The position numbers were made by a program, and so were the translations under genes. Positions 28,709 through 37,492 of a DNA stretch of 39,602 bases are shown here, one piece after another. The DNA comes from a virus. The first letter of the stretch is position 1; each line of letters begins with the position of its first letter. The DNA lies in IMG/VR virus record IMGVR_UViG_3300035670_000556, positions 1 to 39,602 of that record. One strand, 5' to 3'. The notes under the pieces are model-generated. The model ran no database searches. It was not told the origin of the DNA and saw nothing but the letters and a program-made list of their open reading frames with translations.

Positions 28709-29796
28709 ACAACGAACGCCAAAAACTTCCGAGCGCGTCATCCGCGCAACGATACGCCACCTGTCCCGGAAGCTTCTTGCTAGAGCAACAAGCGCCCGAT
28801 GAGCCTACCGGCGAAGATGCCGAGATTGGAAACCGTGTCCATGCGTGGCTAGCGGAGGAGGAAATACAGCTTGAGGATGATGACCTCTATCTAGCCAATC
28901 AATGCCTGACGCACGAACAAGACCTTGTGCGGACGGTATTCGGCCACGCTCCAAAGCGAGTCATCCGCGAGCACCGGATATGGGCTTTTGACCGCAACCT
29001 ACACAAGTCTTGGAGCGGAAAACCTGACGCGGTTTACATCGATGGCCACAGCGGTCTTGTGATCGATTACAAGACCGGACGCGGTGACGTAGAACAGGCC
29101 GCAAGCAATCTTCAGCTTCGCGCACTGGCGGTCCTTGCTTTCTCGTTTTACGGATTGCGCCAAATCACGGTTGCAATCATTCAGCCGCTTGCCGGACAGC
29201 CAACGCATTGCACCTACTCACTGGCTGACCTGATCCAAGCGGAAAAGGAAATTGACGCGATCATGCTTGCCGTCCGACAACCCGGACAACCTCGCAATCC
29301 GTCCGTTGAGGCGTGCAAATACTGCAAGGCAAAGGCAATCTGCCCAGAGGCTAGAGAATCCGCACTTTTACCAGCTTTGAGCAACCTACCAGAAAACATC
29401 ACGCCAGACGCAATCGCTGCAACCCTAACAGGCCCAACGCTTGGCCAATTCCTTGAGCGTGCAAAGCTAGCCGAGTCTGTGATTGAGGCTTGCCGCAATG
29501 AGGCAAAGCGCCGGCTTTCGGAAGGTCAGCAGGTTGAAGGATGGACTTTGAGACCTGGCGCAACACGCGAGACAATCACGCTCCCGGAGACCGTTTTCAG
29601 CCGGTTCCTCGCGGCAAATGGAAGTTACGCCGAGTTTATGAAGTCCGTGAAAATAACCAAATCCGGATTGAAGGATGCACTCCGAAACGCGACCGGGAAA
29701 AAGGGAAAAGAATTGGACGCAAAACTTGAAAGCATTCTGTCCGGTTGCACGGAATCTAAAGCAAGCGAAGCAATTCTCACACAGATCAAAGCATGA
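28705..29796 (+). CDS. PD-(D/E)XK exonuclease, RecB/Cas4-like with Fe-S cysteines
   Basis: A nuclease of 363 residues that probably resects DNA ends for the RecT-like annealer. The active site is visible as GKPDAVY (Asp108), GLVIDYKTG (Asp121, Lys123) and the Q-containing helix (NLQLRALAV, Gln137). Cys20 in the N-terminal YATCPGSF and three Cys in ACKYCKAKAICPEA (Cys204, Cys207, Cys213) match the 4Fe-4S binding pattern of AddB/Cas4-type enzymes. The C-terminal 120 residues are helical. It overlaps the NTP-pyrophosphatase gene by ATGA. A DUF2800-like annotation is an alternative name for the same fold. Confidence 0.85.
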   Translation: MNNERQKLPSASSAQRYATCPGSFLLEQQAPDEPTGEDAEIGNRVHAWLAEEEIQLEDDDLYLANQCLTHEQDLVRTVFGHAPKRVIREHRIWAFDRNLHKSWSGKPDAVYIDGHSGLVIDYKTGRGDVEQAASNLQLRALAVLAFSFYGLRQITVAIIQPLAGQPTHCTYSLADLIQAEKEIDAIMLAVRQPGQPRNPSVEACKYCKAKAICPEARESALLPALSNLPENITPDAIAATLTGPTLGQFLERAKLAESVIEACRNEAKRRLSEGQQVEGWTLRPGATRETITLPETVFSRFLAANGSYAEFMKSVKITKSGLKDALRNATGKKGKELDAKLESILSGCTESKASEAILTQIKA

Positions 29797-30287
29797 ACGC
29801 GCAATATCACCAAGTCCGAGAGTTCCTAGAAACCTTCGTTGAACCAACGCCTGAAAACGTGTCGGTTCCTGAAACCGCCGTTTCATTTGCCCGAGCCGAG
29901 CGTATCCGCGAGGAAGCCATTGAACTGACAACCGCGTTGACCGTGGAGGCTTACACGGACGCAATCTGTGACCTGCTTTACGTGGTCTTGGGCGCGGCTG
30001 TAGCTTCCGGAATATCAGCGTCATCCCTCAAAGCCTGCTTCGATGAGGTTCATCGGTCCAACATGACGAAGGGATGGACCGAGGACGAAGTTGACGCCGC
30101 AAGCGCAGGCGTTTTCAAGAAACACCTTGGAGGCTACTCCGGAACCTTCAGCCAAAACTTCAAGTTTGAGAATCTGAACACCACGAACGACCGCTGTTTC
30201 GTGGTCCGTCGCCGGTCTGATAACAAGGTGATGAAATCACCGTCGTATTCTCCCGCAAATTTCACTGGTCTAATTAAAAGCAAATAA
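29793..30287 (+). CDS. MazG/PRA-PH-like NTP pyrophosphohydrolase
   Basis: A protein of 164 residues with the helical MazG/HisE-type core: REEAIEL (Glu40, Glu41, Glu44), DAICDLLYVVLG (Asp56, Asp60) and CFDEVHRSNMTK (Glu85, Asn90, Lys93). It would hydrolyse NTPs or modified nucleotides to the monophosphate, which may clean nucleotide pools or affect host alarmones. The C-terminal 60 residues are basic and not part of the core. It is coupled to the exonuclease gene by ATGA. Confidence 0.8.
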   Translation: MNAQYHQVREFLETFVEPTPENVSVPETAVSFARAERIREEAIELTTALTVEAYTDAICDLLYVVLGAAVASGISASSLKACFDEVHRSNMTKGWTEDEVDAASAGVFKKHLGGYSGTFSQNFKFENLNTTNDRCFVVRRRSDNKVMKSPSYSPANFTGLIKSK

Positions 30288-31607: not shown

Positions 31608-31951
31608 ACCTGACCAACATAATCGCCGCGCTGATCGCCATTGAAAGCAGCGGAAACGACCTTGCAATCGGCGACGGCGGAAAAGCCATCGGCCCGCTTC
31701 AAATCCACCGCGAAGTCATCGCGGACGTGAACCGGATCACCGGAAAGCGTTACGAGTGGCAACGCATGACGAACCGCGTGGAGGCGTCCGAAGTGTGCGC
31801 CGCATATCTCACCCACTACGCCACGGAAAAGCGCCTAGGAAGGCGGCCAAGGCCCGAAGATATGGCCAGGATCTGGAACGGTGGCCCGAATGGGTTCAAA
31901 AAGAAGGCAACGGACGGTTACGCGAGGAAGTTTCACAGTTTGACCAAGTAA
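31604..31951 (+). CDS. transglycosylase-type lysin (minimal)
   Basis: A protein of 115 residues with the lysozyme-like fold pattern: AALIAIESSGND places the catalytic glutamate at Glu14, AIGPLQIHREV follows, and MARIWNGGPNG near residue 87 is a family motif. It would cut peptidoglycan glycan strands. There is no signal peptide or cell-wall-binding domain. It lies among replication and helicase genes, far from the membrane-protein cluster at 15.5-16.7 kb that may carry holin function. Confidence 0.75.
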   Translation: MNLTNIIAALIAIESSGNDLAIGDGGKAIGPLQIHREVIADVNRITGKRYEWQRMTNRVEASEVCAAYLTHYATEKRLGRRPRPEDMARIWNGGPNGFKKKATDGYARKFHSLTK

Positions 31952-31971
31952 AAGACAACCAACGCAAAAGC

Positions 31972-33381
31972 ATGAACTACGCGGACTTTATACATCGAAA
32001 AACACAATTGGACGGAGACTTCGGCTTTGCTCCGTCTTTTTTCCCAGATGCCTCTTTTGATTTTCAGCGGGCATTGATCGATTGGGCGGTCCGCAAGGGA
32101 CGCGCTGCAATCTTCGCCGATTGCGGAATGGGCAAGACGCTCATGCAACTTGCATTTGCCGAAAACGTGGTCAGAAAAACCAATCGGCCGGTTTTAGTTT
32201 TAACACCGCTTGCCGTTGGCGCTCAGTCGGCAAAGGAGGCGGCCAAGTTTGGGATTGAGGCTTTCCATTGCAGGGACGGAAACCACGGCAACAAGGCAAG
32301 GGTTGTCATCACGAACTATGAACGGTTGCACTATTTCAACGCATCGGACTTTGACGGGACAGTGTGTGATGAGTCCTCAATCTTGAAAAACTTTGACGGA
32401 TCAACAAAGGAGCACGTCACGCGGTTTATGGCAAAGCAGCCTTACCGATTGCTTTGCACGGCAACTGCCGCGCCAAATGATTACGTTGAGCTTGGCACAA
32501 GCTCGGAGGCCCTGGGTCACTTGCCATACTTGGAAATGCTCAAAAAGTTTTTCAAGAATGACTCCAATACATTCGCAAGAGGTGGAAACAATGGAAAAGG
32601 GGCAAGGCGTTTCATTGTTCACGGCGGAGAGGGCGGCAAGTGGAGGTTCCGAGGTCATGCCGAGCGCGACTTCTGGCGATGGGTTTGCTCATGGGCAAGG
32701 GCTGTCAGAAAGCCGTCTGACATTGGTTTTAATGACGGGACACTTGTATTGCCACCGCTGAAAACACAAGAGCACGTCATCAGGTCAGAGAGCAAGCCTG
32801 AGGGGATGCTTTTTGCGCTCCCTTCATTCGGTTTGCAGGAAGAGCGGGCAGAAAACAGGCGCACACTTCAGGACAGATGCGGAAAGGCTGCGGAGTTAAT
32901 TGGAGCAACTTCTGACCATTCTATTGCGTGGTGCCATCTTAACTGCGAAGGGGATGAACTAGAGAAGATGATTCCTCAATCGCAGCAAATCAGCGGACGC
33001 GATTCGGACGATGAAAAGGAGGAGAAAATCGAATGGTTTATATCAGGTCCGGAATCAAAGCGGGTTCTAATAAGCAAGCCAACCGTTCTAGGATTTGGCC
33101 TTAACCTTCAACACTGCGCCCATCAGACCTTTTTTCCGTCACACTCTTTTGAGCAATACTATCAAAGCGTGCGTAGGTCTTGGCGCTTTGGCCAGAAGTC
33201 TCCGGTCACGGTTGACCTAATAACATCGGACGGAAACGCAGGGGTTTTGGCCAATTTGCAGAGGAAATCCGCTGCCGCTGAGCAAATGTTTGCGACACTT
33301 GTCGATCTAATGAACAACGAATTGAGGCTCAACAAATCTCAAATGCATGAAACGAAAATCACAATCCCACAATGGCTATGA
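31972..33381 (+). CDS. DEAD/SNF2-like superfamily 2 helicase
   Basis: A protein of 469 residues. Walker A CGMGKT (51-56), a DExx-type motif VCDES (131-135), TAT (motif III) and, in the C-terminal half, LGFGLNLQHC and QSVRRSWRFGQ (motif VI) define a SNF2-type ATPase/helicase. ATG 31972 is preferred; the upstream open part overlaps the lysin gene and has no helicase features. It is translationally joined to a DNA methyltransferase, a common phage pairing, and may remodel DNA for modification or replication. Confidence 0.87.
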   Translation: MNYADFIHRKTQLDGDFGFAPSFFPDASFDFQRALIDWAVRKGRAAIFADCGMGKTLMQLAFAENVVRKTNRPVLVLTPLAVGAQSAKEAAKFGIEAFHCRDGNHGNKARVVITNYERLHYFNASDFDGTVCDESSILKNFDGSTKEHVTRFMAKQPYRLLCTATAAPNDYVELGTSSEALGHLPYLEMLKKFFKNDSNTFARGGNNGKGARRFIVHGGEGGKWRFRGHAERDFWRWVCSWARAVRKPSDIGFNDGTLVLPPLKTQEHVIRSESKPEGMLFALPSFGLQEERAENRRTLQDRCGKAAELIGATSDHSIAWCHLNCEGDELEKMIPQSQQISGRDSDDEKEEKIEWFISGPESKRVLISKPTVLGFGLNLQHCAHQTFFPSHSFEQYYQSVRRSWRFGQKSPVTVDLITSDGNAGVLANLQRKSAAAEQMFATLVDLMNNELRLNKSQMHETKITIPQWL

Positions 33382-34373
33382 GTGACACCGCAAAAGAAAT
33401 CATCACGAACAACTACGCGTTGTATAATGGAGACTGTATTGAAGGAATGGCAAAGTTGCCGGACAAGTGCGTTGACCTTTCTGTATATTCTCCGCCATTT
33501 GCTGGGCTCTACAATTACAGCTCAGACGAACGCGATTTGAGCAACTGCGTTGATAGTGACGAGTTTTGGGAGCATTACGGCTACGTGATCGATGAGGTTT
33601 CTAGGCTTACAAAACCGGGCAGAATAACAGCGGTCCATGTTACAGACATCCCGACAACCTGCAACGCTGGCGGGCATGCTATAGACATGCCGGGCGAAAC
33701 TGTAAGGCAGCACGAAAAGCGAGGCTTTAGGTTCATGGGCCGGCACGCCATTTGGAAGGAACCGCTTGGAGTTCGGCTTCGCACAATGGCAAAGGGGCTG
33801 GCACATAAGACAATCGTGGAGGATTCAAGCCTGTGCGACCTTGCCCATGCTGACTACGTGATGCTTTTCAGGCGTAACGGAGAAAACCAAACGCCGGTCA
33901 CCCACCCAACCGGCCTCCATTCCTACGCAGGTGAAAGGCAAATCCCTCATGAGCTTCTGACATACAAAGGCTACACAGGGAAGCAGACGGAAAACCGCTT
34001 TTCGCATTGGATTTGGAGGCAATACGCATCCGCTTTTTGGGATGACATTAGGCTTGAGCGCGTCTTGCCGTTCAAGGACTGCAAAGATCCGGACGATGAA
34101 AAGCACGTCCACCCGTTGCAATTGGATGTAATCGAAAGGATTGTTGTCCTTCGATCAAACCCTGGTGAAACAGTGCTGACCCCATTCATGGGCGTTGGTT
34201 CCGAGGCTTACGGGGCAATTATCAATGGTCGAAAGGCAATTGGTTTTGAACTCAAGAACGCTTACTTCCGCCAAGCCGTCGCCAACTGCGAACACGCTGC
34301 CAAGGGTCATGCGGTTGAGGAAATGCCGCTTTTTGGGTCACTCATTGAGTCCGATGAAATCGCAGACTTATGA
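33378..34373 (+). CDS. DNA methyltransferase (N4/N6, beta-type order)
   Basis: A protein of 331 residues (333 if ATG 33372 is used). Motif IV is SPPF (residues about 38-41) and motif I FMGVGSEAYGAI is near the C-terminus, the order of beta-group amino methyltransferases (N6-adenine or N4-cytosine). Other family blocks are present (RDLSNC, SRLTKPGRITAVH, GRKAIGFELK). SPPF instead of DPPY/NPPY is usual in this phage branch. It may protect phage DNA from restriction. ATG 33378 makes the usual ATGA overlap with the helicase. Confidence 0.88.
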   Translation: MSDTAKEIITNNYALYNGDCIEGMAKLPDKCVDLSVYSPPFAGLYNYSSDERDLSNCVDSDEFWEHYGYVIDEVSRLTKPGRITAVHVTDIPTTCNAGGHAIDMPGETVRQHEKRGFRFMGRHAIWKEPLGVRLRTMAKGLAHKTIVEDSSLCDLAHADYVMLFRRNGENQTPVTHPTGLHSYAGERQIPHELLTYKGYTGKQTENRFSHWIWRQYASAFWDDIRLERVLPFKDCKDPDDEKHVHPLQLDVIERIVVLRSNPGETVLTPFMGVGSEAYGAIINGRKAIGFELKNAYFRQAVANCEHAAKGHAVEEMPLFGSLIESDEIADL

Positions 34374-35190: not shown

Positions 35191-35332
35191 GCCCCAGCAG
35201 CGCAAGGCGTGAGAACCTAGCGGGGCTAACTACAACAAGCGATGAAACATCAACTTTTCCCCACCCTTACAGGGATACGTCGCGGACCGCTTGCCGTGAG
35301 TTCTCACCCCTGTTTGCGGTGGGGTTTTTGTT
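35191..35332 (+). ncRNA. candidate structured noncoding RNA
   Basis: From about 35191 to the terminator, no ORF is supported, but the RNA would be strongly structured: GCCCC (35191-35195) with GGGGC (35222-35226), GTGAGAAC (35209-35216) with GTTCTCAC (35300-35307, 8 bp), and CCCCACC near 35260 with GGTGGGG near 35319-35324. These pairings partly exclude each other, as in a switching leader. Promoter upstream and terminator downstream define a unit of about 140 bases. It may be a free small RNA or a leader for the genes after it. Confidence 0.5.
35306..35332 (+). terminator. intrinsic terminator upstream of modification genes
   Basis: ACCCC (35306-35310), a 10-base loop and GGGGT (35321-35325), continuing as TTTTTGTTT, form an intrinsic terminator; an alternative longer 7-bp pairing of GGTGGGG with CCCCACC at about 35260 is possible. 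It ends about ten bases before the next start, so downstream genes depend on readthrough or on a regulated choice between the two folds. Confidence 0.72.
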
Positions 35333-35342
35333 TCTTAATCCG

Positions 35343-35546
35343 ATGAAATCTTTCCAAAAACGCAGGCATGGGTCGTGCAGGTTTTCCACCTATTTCAAGA
35401 ACGAATGGTTTGATCCGGCAATTCAGTCGTGGCGTCCGGTTCAAAAAACATTTGAGACAATCGGCCTTGCTAATCTAGCCAAGGCGCCAGGAAAAACGTG
35501 GCGCACATTCGAGGTGTCAGAGTCTGGAAGGAGGTTGCTTCCGTGA
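35343..35546 (+). CDS. small basic protein before glycosyltransferase pair
   Basis: A protein of 67 residues, basic with aromatics (KSFQKRRHGSCRFSTYFKNE; KTWRTFEVSESGRRLL). ATG 35343 follows the terminator directly. It is coupled to the next gene by a GTGA overlap. No family is recognised. Given its neighbours, a role in the DNA modification locus is possible. Confidence 0.5.
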   Translation: MKSFQKRRHGSCRFSTYFKNEWFDPAIQSWRPVQKTFETIGLANLAKAPGKTWRTFEVSESGRRLLP

Positions 35547-35944
35547 AACAGTTCACAATGTTTGGCTCCGAATCCGACGAGCCGAAAAAATATTCTGCAA
35601 AGATTGAGGCTCCGATTTACGAACCGAAAAAACCAGCGCCAGACATCAGGACGCTTTGCAATGACGGAAAAACGAAGGCTCTACTCATCGAGATTGAAGA
35701 GTCTGGACTGCCCGAAACAGAAAAGGCTTATCTTCGCGCCGCAGCCCATCGCCACACGGTTTTTAATTACGAGATGGCCGCCGACTACTACGCCTGCGCA
35801 TCGCCAGAAATGCAGCGGCTCATGGAAAGATCGGCGCTTGTCATTATTGATTTTGACGCAGCAATCGAAAGCGGTTTTGTGAGGCTTTGCGACGAAATCA
35901 AAACCCAGTTTTTGGAGGAATACGCAGATGAAAAAGCTTCCTGA
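35543..35944 (+). CDS. conserved partner protein of phage glycosyltransferase
   Basis: A protein of 133 residues starting with GTG. The C-terminal part (HTVFNYEMAADYYACASPEM then RSALVIIDFDAAIESGFVRL) matches a family repeatedly seen beside the glycosyltransferase type that follows here, in many phages. It is helical, without catalytic motifs that I can name. It overlaps the glycosyltransferase gene by 17 bases. It could load or target the enzyme. This link is from recalled gene context, not from a search. Confidence 0.6.
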   Translation: MKQFTMFGSESDEPKKYSAKIEAPIYEPKKPAPDIRTLCNDGKTKALLIEIEESGLPETEKAYLRAAAHRHTVFNYEMAADYYACASPEMQRLMERSALVIIDFDAAIESGFVRLCDEIKTQFLEEYADEKAS

Positions 35945-36773
35945 TACGTTTGCCGTCTTCATCCTGACGCACGGGAGGCCGGATAACGTCATCACGTTTA
36001 AGACGCTCCAAAAGTGCGGATATACAGGAAAGCTGTTCTTTATTGTGGATGACGAGGACAAGGCGGTTGACAGATACATTGCCAACTTTGGGCGCGAGCG
36101 CGTGATTGTGTTCCGAAAAAAAGATGTTGCTGACGCCTGCGACGAGGGAAACAACTTCGACGAGAGGCGGACGATCCTAATGGCTCGCAACGCCTGCTTT
36201 AATATAGCGAAAGCAATTGGCGTAACGCACTTTTTGCAGCTAGATGATGATTATTACTACTTTGGCTATCGCTTTGAGAGCGGAGCGAGGAAAATCACCA
36301 ATATTAACGCCGTCTTTGCAACTATCTTGAGATACCACAAGGCAACGAACATTACTTCCATCGCATTCGGGCAAGGCGGAGACCACATCGGCGGGTTTTC
36401 TGGAATCAAATTAAAACGGAAGTGCATGAACTCTTTCTTTTGCTCAACCGAGCGCCAATTTCGATTCGTTGGCGCTATGAATGAGGATGTAAACACGTTC
36501 ACAACAATCGGCAGTAGGGGAGGCATCTTCTTGACGTTTACAGGGCTACAACTTGACCAAAAAGACACGCAATCTCAATCGAGCGGAATCACCGAAATGT
36601 ATCTAAGATTTGGGACATACTGCAAAGCCTTCACCACCGTAATGATGATGCCGGGCAGCGTTAAGGTTTCAATGATGAGAAGCAAAAACCCGAGGATTCA
36701 CCACTCAATCGATTGGAAGGCAACCGTCCCATGCATTGTTCGGGAAACGCACAGAAAACAGAACGCATTATGA
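35928..36773 (+). CDS. TAGT-like (TET/JBP-associated type) DNA glycosyltransferase candidate
   Basis: A GT-A-like protein of 281 residues. FILTHGRPDN (11-20) is a family motif at the first strand, HFLQLDDDYYYFGYRF (101-116) holds the metal/nucleotide-sugar DDD at 106-108, and FVGAMNEDVNTFTTIGSRGG (180-199) carries a second acidic motif (NED at 185-187) typical of this group, followed by NPRIHH. Such enzymes are proposed to glycosylate modified bases in phage DNA. No TET/JBP hydroxylase is visible in the window, so the accepting base is unknown. ATGAAAAAG at 35928 overlaps the partner gene. Confidence 0.78.
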   Translation: MKKLPDTFAVFILTHGRPDNVITFKTLQKCGYTGKLFFIVDDEDKAVDRYIANFGRERVIVFRKKDVADACDEGNNFDERRTILMARNACFNIAKAIGVTHFLQLDDDYYYFGYRFESGARKITNINAVFATILRYHKATNITSIAFGQGGDHIGGFSGIKLKRKCMNSFFCSTERQFRFVGAMNEDVNTFTTIGSRGGIFLTFTGLQLDQKDTQSQSSGITEMYLRFGTYCKAFTTVMMMPGSVKVSMMRSKNPRIHHSIDWKATVPCIVRETHRKQNAL

Positions 36774-37492
36774 TCGTGGAACCGGACTTTTTGGACCACT
36801 GGAAAACAAGAATGCTAGTCCGCCTGCTAGGGACCGAAACCGCTCCACTTTGCGTGATCCGACTTTGGGCACATTGCCAGCAGAGAAAAACCGACCGGTT
36901 TACCGGCTGGATACCGGACGTTTTGGCGTCGGTTTGCCGGTGGGATGGCGACGGGAAAACCCTGTGGGATGCAATGCTGCAAACCTTCATCGAAAAGGAC
37001 GGCGAAACCGTGATAGTTCACGACTGGGCAATGTCCAACGCGAGCCTGATTTCCGCTTGGGAAAACGGCAAAAAAGGGGGCAGGCCGACAGTTTTGAAAC
37101 CGGCAGGAAACCGACCGGTTATCCGACCGGTATCCTACCGGGTAACCGATAGAGAAGATAGAATAGATAGAGAAGAGAAGACAAACACAACGGCTTCGCC
37201 TTGGATTGTTGGCTTCGGACTTGAGTTACCTGAAAGACTTCGGACGGACCAATGCCTTAACGCCGTGAAGCTGTGGTTAGCGCATAAAGCTGAAAAACGG
37301 CAATCCTACAAGCCGACAGGCTTAAAGATGGCTCTGACAAAGTGGTCGAACGAGTTTTCCGCTGAAACCTTCCCGTCAGCCGTTGAAAACTCAATCGCTT
37401 CCGGATGGGTCGGAATCTATCAGTCCAAGGAAAAGGTTGAGCCCAAAGCGACACCCGACTCCGACAAGATTTCAATTTTTGACTGCCTGTGA
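36770..37492 (+). CDS. replication initiator/organiser protein
   Basis: A protein of 240 residues. The N-terminal DFLDHWKTRMLVRLLGTETA followed by VIRLWAHCQQRKTDRF is typical of phage replisome organisers with a winged-helix domain; GKKGGRP is the linker, and the C-terminal part (KLWLAHKAEKRQSYKPTGLK...WSNEF) resembles the DnaB-contacting domain. It lies directly before the DnaB-type helicase, as initiator/loader genes usually do. Start ATG 36770 overlaps the glycosyltransferase stop; the end overlaps the helicase start (GTGA). Confidence 0.78.
   Translation: MIVEPDFLDHWKTRMLVRLLGTETAPLCVIRLWAHCQQRKTDRFTGWIPDVLASVCRWDGDGKTLWDAMLQTFIEKDGETVIVHDWAMSNASLISAWENGKKGGRPTVLKPAGNRPVIRPVSYRVTDREDRIDREEKTNTTASPWIVGFGLELPERLRTDQCLNAVKLWLAHKAEKRQSYKPTGLKMALTKWSNEFSAETFPSAVENSIASGWVGIYQSKEKVEPKATPDSDKISIFDCL

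Follow-up and report, generated by a model that had tools for sequence, protein, structure and literature searches.

The TAGT glycosyltransferases take their name from an association with TET/JBP enzymes, a naming context that PMC4111573 and PMC6163654 trace to Iyer and Aravind (2013). In phage T6, the TAGT (PF20691) is described as adding glucose to glucosyl-hydroxymethylcytosine (glucosyl-hmC) in DNA (PMC13216743). Its acceptor is a sugar hydroxyl on a base that has already been modified; the enzyme works after an α-glucosyltransferase (α-GT), and its gene overlaps the dCMP hydroxymethylase gene. Among 753 phage genomes, the same 2026 study counted 288 with solitary TAGTs, which lack an accompanying α- or β-GT, and suggested that they are novel transferases (PMC13216743). 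These solitary TAGTs probably include the type analyzed here, although that study mentions ParB 0 times and does not appear to describe a two-gene module. In a further phage DNA hypermodification system, CmoX/CmoY, ParBc proteins accompany the cytosine-carboxymethyltransferase CmoX (PMC12783734).

The window, by which we mean the whole 39,602-base stretch of IMG/VR virus record IMGVR_UViG_3300035670_000556 (a linear contig, possibly incomplete), encodes a TAGT with a small partner protein. The window TAGT shares its Pfam and PHROG family with the T2/T6 β-glucosyl-HMC-α-glucosyltransferase, both being phage-encoded, and shares its Pfam family, by name and by profile, with the TET/JBP-associated TAGTs. 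Both phage enzymes adopt a GT-A fold, T6 TAGT according to the published model (PMC13216743) and window TAGT according to our own. However, the two sequences give no significant pairwise match (T6 TAGT scores 37.2 bits against PF20691) and, because they are only remotely similar, the T6 substrate is not transferable to the window TAGT by homology. The genetic contexts also differ. The window type has neither the hydroxymethylase nor the α-GT and, unlike T6 TAGT, always occurs with a ParB-type partner, while the TET/JBP-TAGT system needs a linked TET/JBP gene, which was found in none of 36 records. As the defining enzymes of both systems were sought and not found, the pair is TAGT by family but by context neither a TET/JBP-linked nor a T-even hmC system. 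The ParBc neighbors of CmoX/CmoY resemble the ParB link of the pair, but that system consists of a C5-carboxymethyltransferase plus a ligase and has no glycosyltransferase. Phage ParB-domain DNA methyltransferases (phrog_498), for example in the Lactobacillus prophage Lj771, share with the pair a ParB N-terminal domain and a slot in front of the terminase genes; their effector is a methyltransferase, whereas that of the pair is an adaptor plus a glycosyltransferase. In our searches of open-access papers, we found no account of the partner-TAGT pair.

The TAGT and its partner in the window

The pair is located amid a replication cluster, immediately 5′ of a replication-initiation-like gene (36770-37492; phrog_9474) that overlaps the 3′ end of the TAGT gene and is followed by DnaB. 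The initial annotation, made from the sequence alone, had placed the product of the gene at 35928 in the TAGT family. The Pfam profile PF20691 confirms this assignment with 112.5 bits (E 3.4e-32; curated cut-off 27.5 bits), phrog_842 is matched with an E of 8.7e-63 and the reading frame is intact. The three motifs that had been read in the product are also present, as HGR (residues 15-17), DDD and NED. Across 69 homologs, the residues listed as invariant in Table 1 are joined by G155, K165, M167, G198 and Q215, while H15, G16, R17, D106 and E186 show conservation of at least 90%. By analogy with GT-A enzymes, DDD is presumed to be the metal/NDP-sugar-binding DxD motif and, by analogy with GT2-type GT-A enzymes, NED is presumed to provide the catalytic base; R256 and H259 presumably contact the metal and diphosphate.

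Table 1 Features of the partner-TAGT locus in the window and of variant loci in relatives
Feature	Coordinates	Strand	Remarks
Small ORF	35319..35546	+	directly 5′ of partner gene; stop overlaps the GTG start of the partner
Partner, 133 aa, stand-alone helical domain	35543..35944	+	homologous to C-terminal half of ParB-like phage proteins (phrog_620)
TAGT glycosyltransferase, 281 aa, GT-A fold, PF20691	35928..36773	+	profile match, structure model
DDD, residues 106-108, predicted DxD motif	36243..36251	+	D107, D108 invariant, n=69
NED, residues 185-187, predicted catalytic-base motif	36480..36488	+	N185, D187 invariant, n=69
RIHH, residues 256-259	36693..36704	+	R256, H259 invariant
Inserted class I SAM-methyltransferase	L093:5883-6719; L060:4334-5185		between partner and TAGT
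Tandem TAGT loci	L107:6221-9210; L110:8356-10037; L111:8332-10036; L113:8392-10090		

An AlphaFold2 model of the TAGT (pLDDT 89.9, pTM 0.88) has a GT-A fold, and its best VIA match is the GT-A enzyme N-acetylglucosaminyltransferase I (GnT-I; Z 15.1, 3.5 Å, 197 residues). Searches of solved structures with the TAGT sequence, as a single sequence and as a profile, gave no useful match. The top Foldseek match, AvpGT with Ara-A, hinted at a nucleoside acceptor but was set aside because many GT-A matches score alike. A TAGT tree that includes T6 and a distant Pseudomonadota prophage TAGT (L147) has very long branches, which makes its deep placement unreliable.

The partner gene overlaps the TAGT gene by 17 bp. 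Its homologs begin at the same MKQ..LFG as the product of the GTG at 35543, which identifies this GTG as the right start, and a start at 35498 was therefore rejected. The partner reading frame is conserved in all relatives examined, far beyond chance, and Y17, Y26, R70, H71, F74, Y83, Q91, E95, S97 and D103 are invariant. The domain is helical, spans ~110 residues and elsewhere forms the C-terminal half of ParB-like viral proteins. The partner matches phrog_620 over the C-terminal part alone (148-215 of 217). That family is annotated as "ParB-like partition protein" solely on account of ParB_N, a domain that the window partner lacks. No ParB_N domain was found anywhere in the window record, and the window partner corresponds to the C-terminal adaptor domain alone. 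The partner model contains five helices and a well-predicted core; its N-terminal stretch (Y17, P24, Y26, P33) is modeled with low confidence, yet is strongly conserved. Foldseek found no PDB match for the partner at E≤0.001, a result that does not show a new fold, and its two matches among viral structures were both relatives of the partner itself. As modeled, the fold gives no hint of catalysis. When the partner profile A1 was compared with solved structures, a ParB/Noc match was obtained that was confined to the ParB part.

Many cellular relatives of the partner are 240-340 residues long, with ParB_N present in those tested, and ParB_N and the C-terminal adaptor domain occur together in many relatives. 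As one protein within the tree cluster of the window (L049) retains ParB_N, loss of the ParB domain in the lineage of the window is the likelier history. The small ORF 5′ of the partner gene is possibly co-translated with it, but L002-L007, L016 and L093, the closest relatives, are the only ones to share it, and it is outside the universal module. Farther upstream, the window contains an SNF2/DEAD-type helicase gene followed by an N6/N4 DNA methyltransferase gene with an SPPF motif (31933-34373), an order that recurs 5′ of the TAGT pair in the Verrucomicrobia contig L093. A gene for a phosphoribosyl-ATP pyrophosphohydrolase/MazG-type nucleotide hydrolase is found at 29793-30287 (PF01503, 51.7 bits).

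Pairing and distribution of the two genes

A conserved partner gene in front of the TAGT gene had been noted from the window sequence, and the arrangement proved general: both genes could be scored in 112 loci from viruses, phages and cells, and in every one the partner is 5′ of the TAGT, with overlapping genes in 110. Among 50,697 phage records, 34 hold a TAGT of the pair type and 30 of these also hold the partner; conversely, each of the 30 records with the partner has the TAGT. The other four records represent two phages (Ld17 and LL-Ku), in which the TAGT match is shortened and located in the first kilobase of the record. A search of GTDB with the partner profile returned 31 loci from Verrucomicrobia, Bacteroidota, Firmicutes, Kiritimatiellae, Proteobacteria and others, with the TAGT gene directly 3′ in all but two: in L121 the contig stops there, and in L093 another gene lies in between. 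Thus, the partner and TAGT are a conserved unit with obligate pairing.

Hosts of the module include E. coli, lactobacilli, Haloarcula, Nocardia, Porphyromonas, Bacteroides and Verrucomicrobia, and the pair often adjoins terminase and head genes. We compared the gene content of 13 phages: the archaeal virus HHTV-2, Nocardia phage NTR1, the Lactobacillus phages c5 and phi jlb1, one phage each of Porphyromonas and E. coli, the window and six other metagenomic viruses. The partner and TAGT are the only two protein families common to all 13, the next family being present in three.

Acceptor-making enzymes and the target of the pair

According to the initial annotation, the window carries no recognizable TET/JBP, thymidylate synthase-like or hydroxymethyltransferase gene. 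Profile searches agree: neither a Tet_JBP nor a thymidylate-synthase-like domain was found in the window record, within the limits of a linear and possibly incomplete contig, and the other scanned predicted proteins of its early region are likewise without either. Nor does any of the 36 records contain a Tet_JBP match at E≤1, in a search that had no TET-carrying control phage and in which no control genome scored over the cut-off, or a thymidylate-synthase-like match, in a search whose positive control, the T6 dCMP hydroxymethylase, was detected by profile. With 0 of 36 records positive, the missing hydroxylase is general and not peculiar to the window. Outside these records, Vibrio phage pv27 gives a single full-length match to thymidylate synthase, located far from the pair. 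Tet_JBP was also not found over the cut-off in 24 cellular genomes with the module; one weak match, in the E. coli strain E69, stayed below the cut-off with 14.9 bits (E 0.03) and was regarded as chance.

Linked methylases were also considered. A linked C5-cytosine methylase as the acceptor source was rejected, as such a methylase was found in one of 36 records. N6/N4 methylases score over the cut-off in 4 of 36 records and so are not generally linked to the pair; the window record has one N6/N4 DNA methyltransferase gene (33372-34373). Because the 13 phages have only the partner and TAGT in common, the acceptor has to be supplied by the partner or TAGT, the host, ordinary DNA or enzymes that vary from phage to phage.

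Two lines of evidence bear on the target. Phage DNA methyltransferases carry the ParB_N domain that is seen in the long partners (phrog_498, 3.7e-51), and elsewhere this domain is often fused to DNA methylases. In addition, phi jlb1 and Lj771 have upstream genes in common and share their ParB domain until a single breakpoint (L084 11629 / L127 6352); they match again in the terminase genes from TerS on. The slot between the ParB domain and the terminase is filled by the partner and TAGT in phi jlb1 and by an adenine methyltransferase in Lj771. This replacement in Lactobacillus prophages, seen in one clear phage pair, is suggestive of a DNA target. On this indirect evidence, the fusion to ParB and the methyltransferase swap, we favor DNA as the target of the TAGT. 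The sharing of ParB_N, the methyltransferase swap, the link between CmoX and ParBc proteins and the position of the pair amid the replication genes of the window further suggest that the long partner acts as a DNA-contacting adaptor and the short partner as an adaptor for the TAGT, in which case the ParB part would be dispensable and the adaptor domain not.

We lean, if only slightly, towards reading the pair as a self-contained, adaptor-guided DNA glycosylation module that operates with no usual acceptor-making enzyme. In this predicted mechanism, the TAGT would be a metal-dependent GT-A glycosyltransferase that transfers a sugar from a host nucleotide sugar to viral DNA, most likely to one of the bases, while the partner, as an adaptor, would dock the TAGT on its substrate. 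The N-terminal ParB domain that the partner has in most cellular prophages would give extra DNA contact or targeting, which would have been lost with that domain in the lineage of the window. No TET/JBP dioxygenase or dCMP/dUMP hydroxymethylase would take part, from which it follows that the acceptor would be a group already in ordinary DNA or one made by the partner-TAGT pair. Protection from host nucleases would be a likely role.

The main competing explanation is that the TAGT glycosylates something other than DNA, such as a virion protein, host RNA or tRNA, or a surface glycan, with the ParB-derived partner as the substrate adaptor. The frequent location of the pair just 5′ of terminase and head genes would suit a virion-protein substrate, and the GT-A relatives of the TAGT in the PDB mostly act on proteins or sugars. 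Actinophages glycosylate virion proteins, and the human TAGT-domain protein GREB1 reportedly glycosylates a protein. However, the window pair is in a replication cluster and that of pv27 between DNA metabolism genes, the ParB fusion and the methyltransferase swap point to DNA, no lipid-linked sugar or flippase genes accompany the pair, and a virion-protein target shared by phages with no other family in common is unlikely. We consider a non-DNA target rather unlikely overall. Far less probable still is a regulatory or packaging accessory in which the glycosyltransferase fold serves as a binding protein: some extra tandem TAGT copies do have degraded motifs, but the catalytic-type residues of the main copy are invariant in 69 sequences from many phyla.

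Two other explanations concern the acceptor. The host might supply a modified base, for example an oxidized or hydroxymethylated pyrimidine, to which the phage adds only the sugar. This would explain the missing hydroxylase, yet it appears improbable across hosts from Escherichia to Haloarcula; we know of no base hydroxylation common to all the host groups named above, and the 24 module-bearing cellular genomes have no Tet_JBP over the cut-off. Alternatively, a conventional acceptor-making enzyme may have been missed, being too divergent for profiles or encoded beyond the recovered contigs. Many of the records are contigs and possibly incomplete, profile searches have limits, and most small ORFs of the window match no family. 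Nevertheless, complete genomes (HHTV-2, c5, phi jlb1, Nocardia NTR1 and the Porphyromonas phage) were searched and none was found, and such an enzyme would need to vary from phage to phage, as the partner and TAGT alone are common to them; we give this explanation little weight as well.

For a DNA glycosylation module, a more specific and clearly more tentative proposal is that the TAGT and its partner act on double-stranded DNA and attach the sugar to an unmodified base, at an exocyclic amine for instance, or that the partner makes the acceptor. Either would be a hydroxylase-free two-protein route in bacterial and archaeal viruses and in natural E. coli. To our knowledge, in all known sugar-modified phage DNA a dedicated enzyme first puts a hydroxyl on the base, and we know of no accepted precedent for a glycosyltransferase that acts on an unmodified DNA base. 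There is a real chance that the chemistry of the pair is new: if it modifies DNA, either the base chemistry itself or the way in which the acceptor is made would be new. Such an activity could be of use in epigenetic labeling and would give insight into viral escape from restriction and CRISPR. The prediction is directly testable, as the module is carried by culturable viruses of Lactobacillus and Haloarcula and occurs in hundreds of complete E. coli genomes.

Locus variants and E. coli prophages

In the two scored loci with a gap (L060 and L093), a class I SAM-methyltransferase gene is located exactly between the partner and TAGT genes, and its product might methylate the sugar or the base. 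Other loci have several TAGT genes in tandem beside one partner gene, two in L110, L111 and L113 and three in L107. The extra copies are divergent, and the first copy in L107 has no NED; they may reflect longer sugar chains, comparable to the second glucose in T6, or loss of activity. In L116 (6498-7901), an N-terminal P-loop domain with weak matches to phage kinases and to a terminase small subunit family is fused to the TAGT. When a TET-linked TAGT was sought as a comparator, 398 Pseudomonadota genomes yielded one partner-less TAGT over the cut-off (L136/L147). This distant TAGT (L147:7373-8897, minus strand) instead has a different ParB-type protein 5′ of it, with another C-terminal domain; the locus is 5′ of the terminase, and no Tet_JBP match was found in the genome carrying this prophage.

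Of 5,426 complete E. coli genomes, 885 carry the module over more than 80% of its length. The E. coli loci examined place it in Rac-type prophages, with trkG on one side and the terminase genes on the other; the RefSeq names are "GREB1-related protein" for the TAGT and "ynaK, ParB/Srx family" for the partner. Some copies are not intact, as ynaK is annotated as incomplete in several natural strains. The shorter ynaK matches at the Rac locus reflect deletions or insertions and not a methylase swap. In K-12 and BL21, only the start of ynaK is left. The Rac deletion in K-12 took the adaptor domain, the TAGT and the terminase and head genes that are seen in other E. coli, and ynaK and ydaY (L128:5001-5604) join at this deletion.
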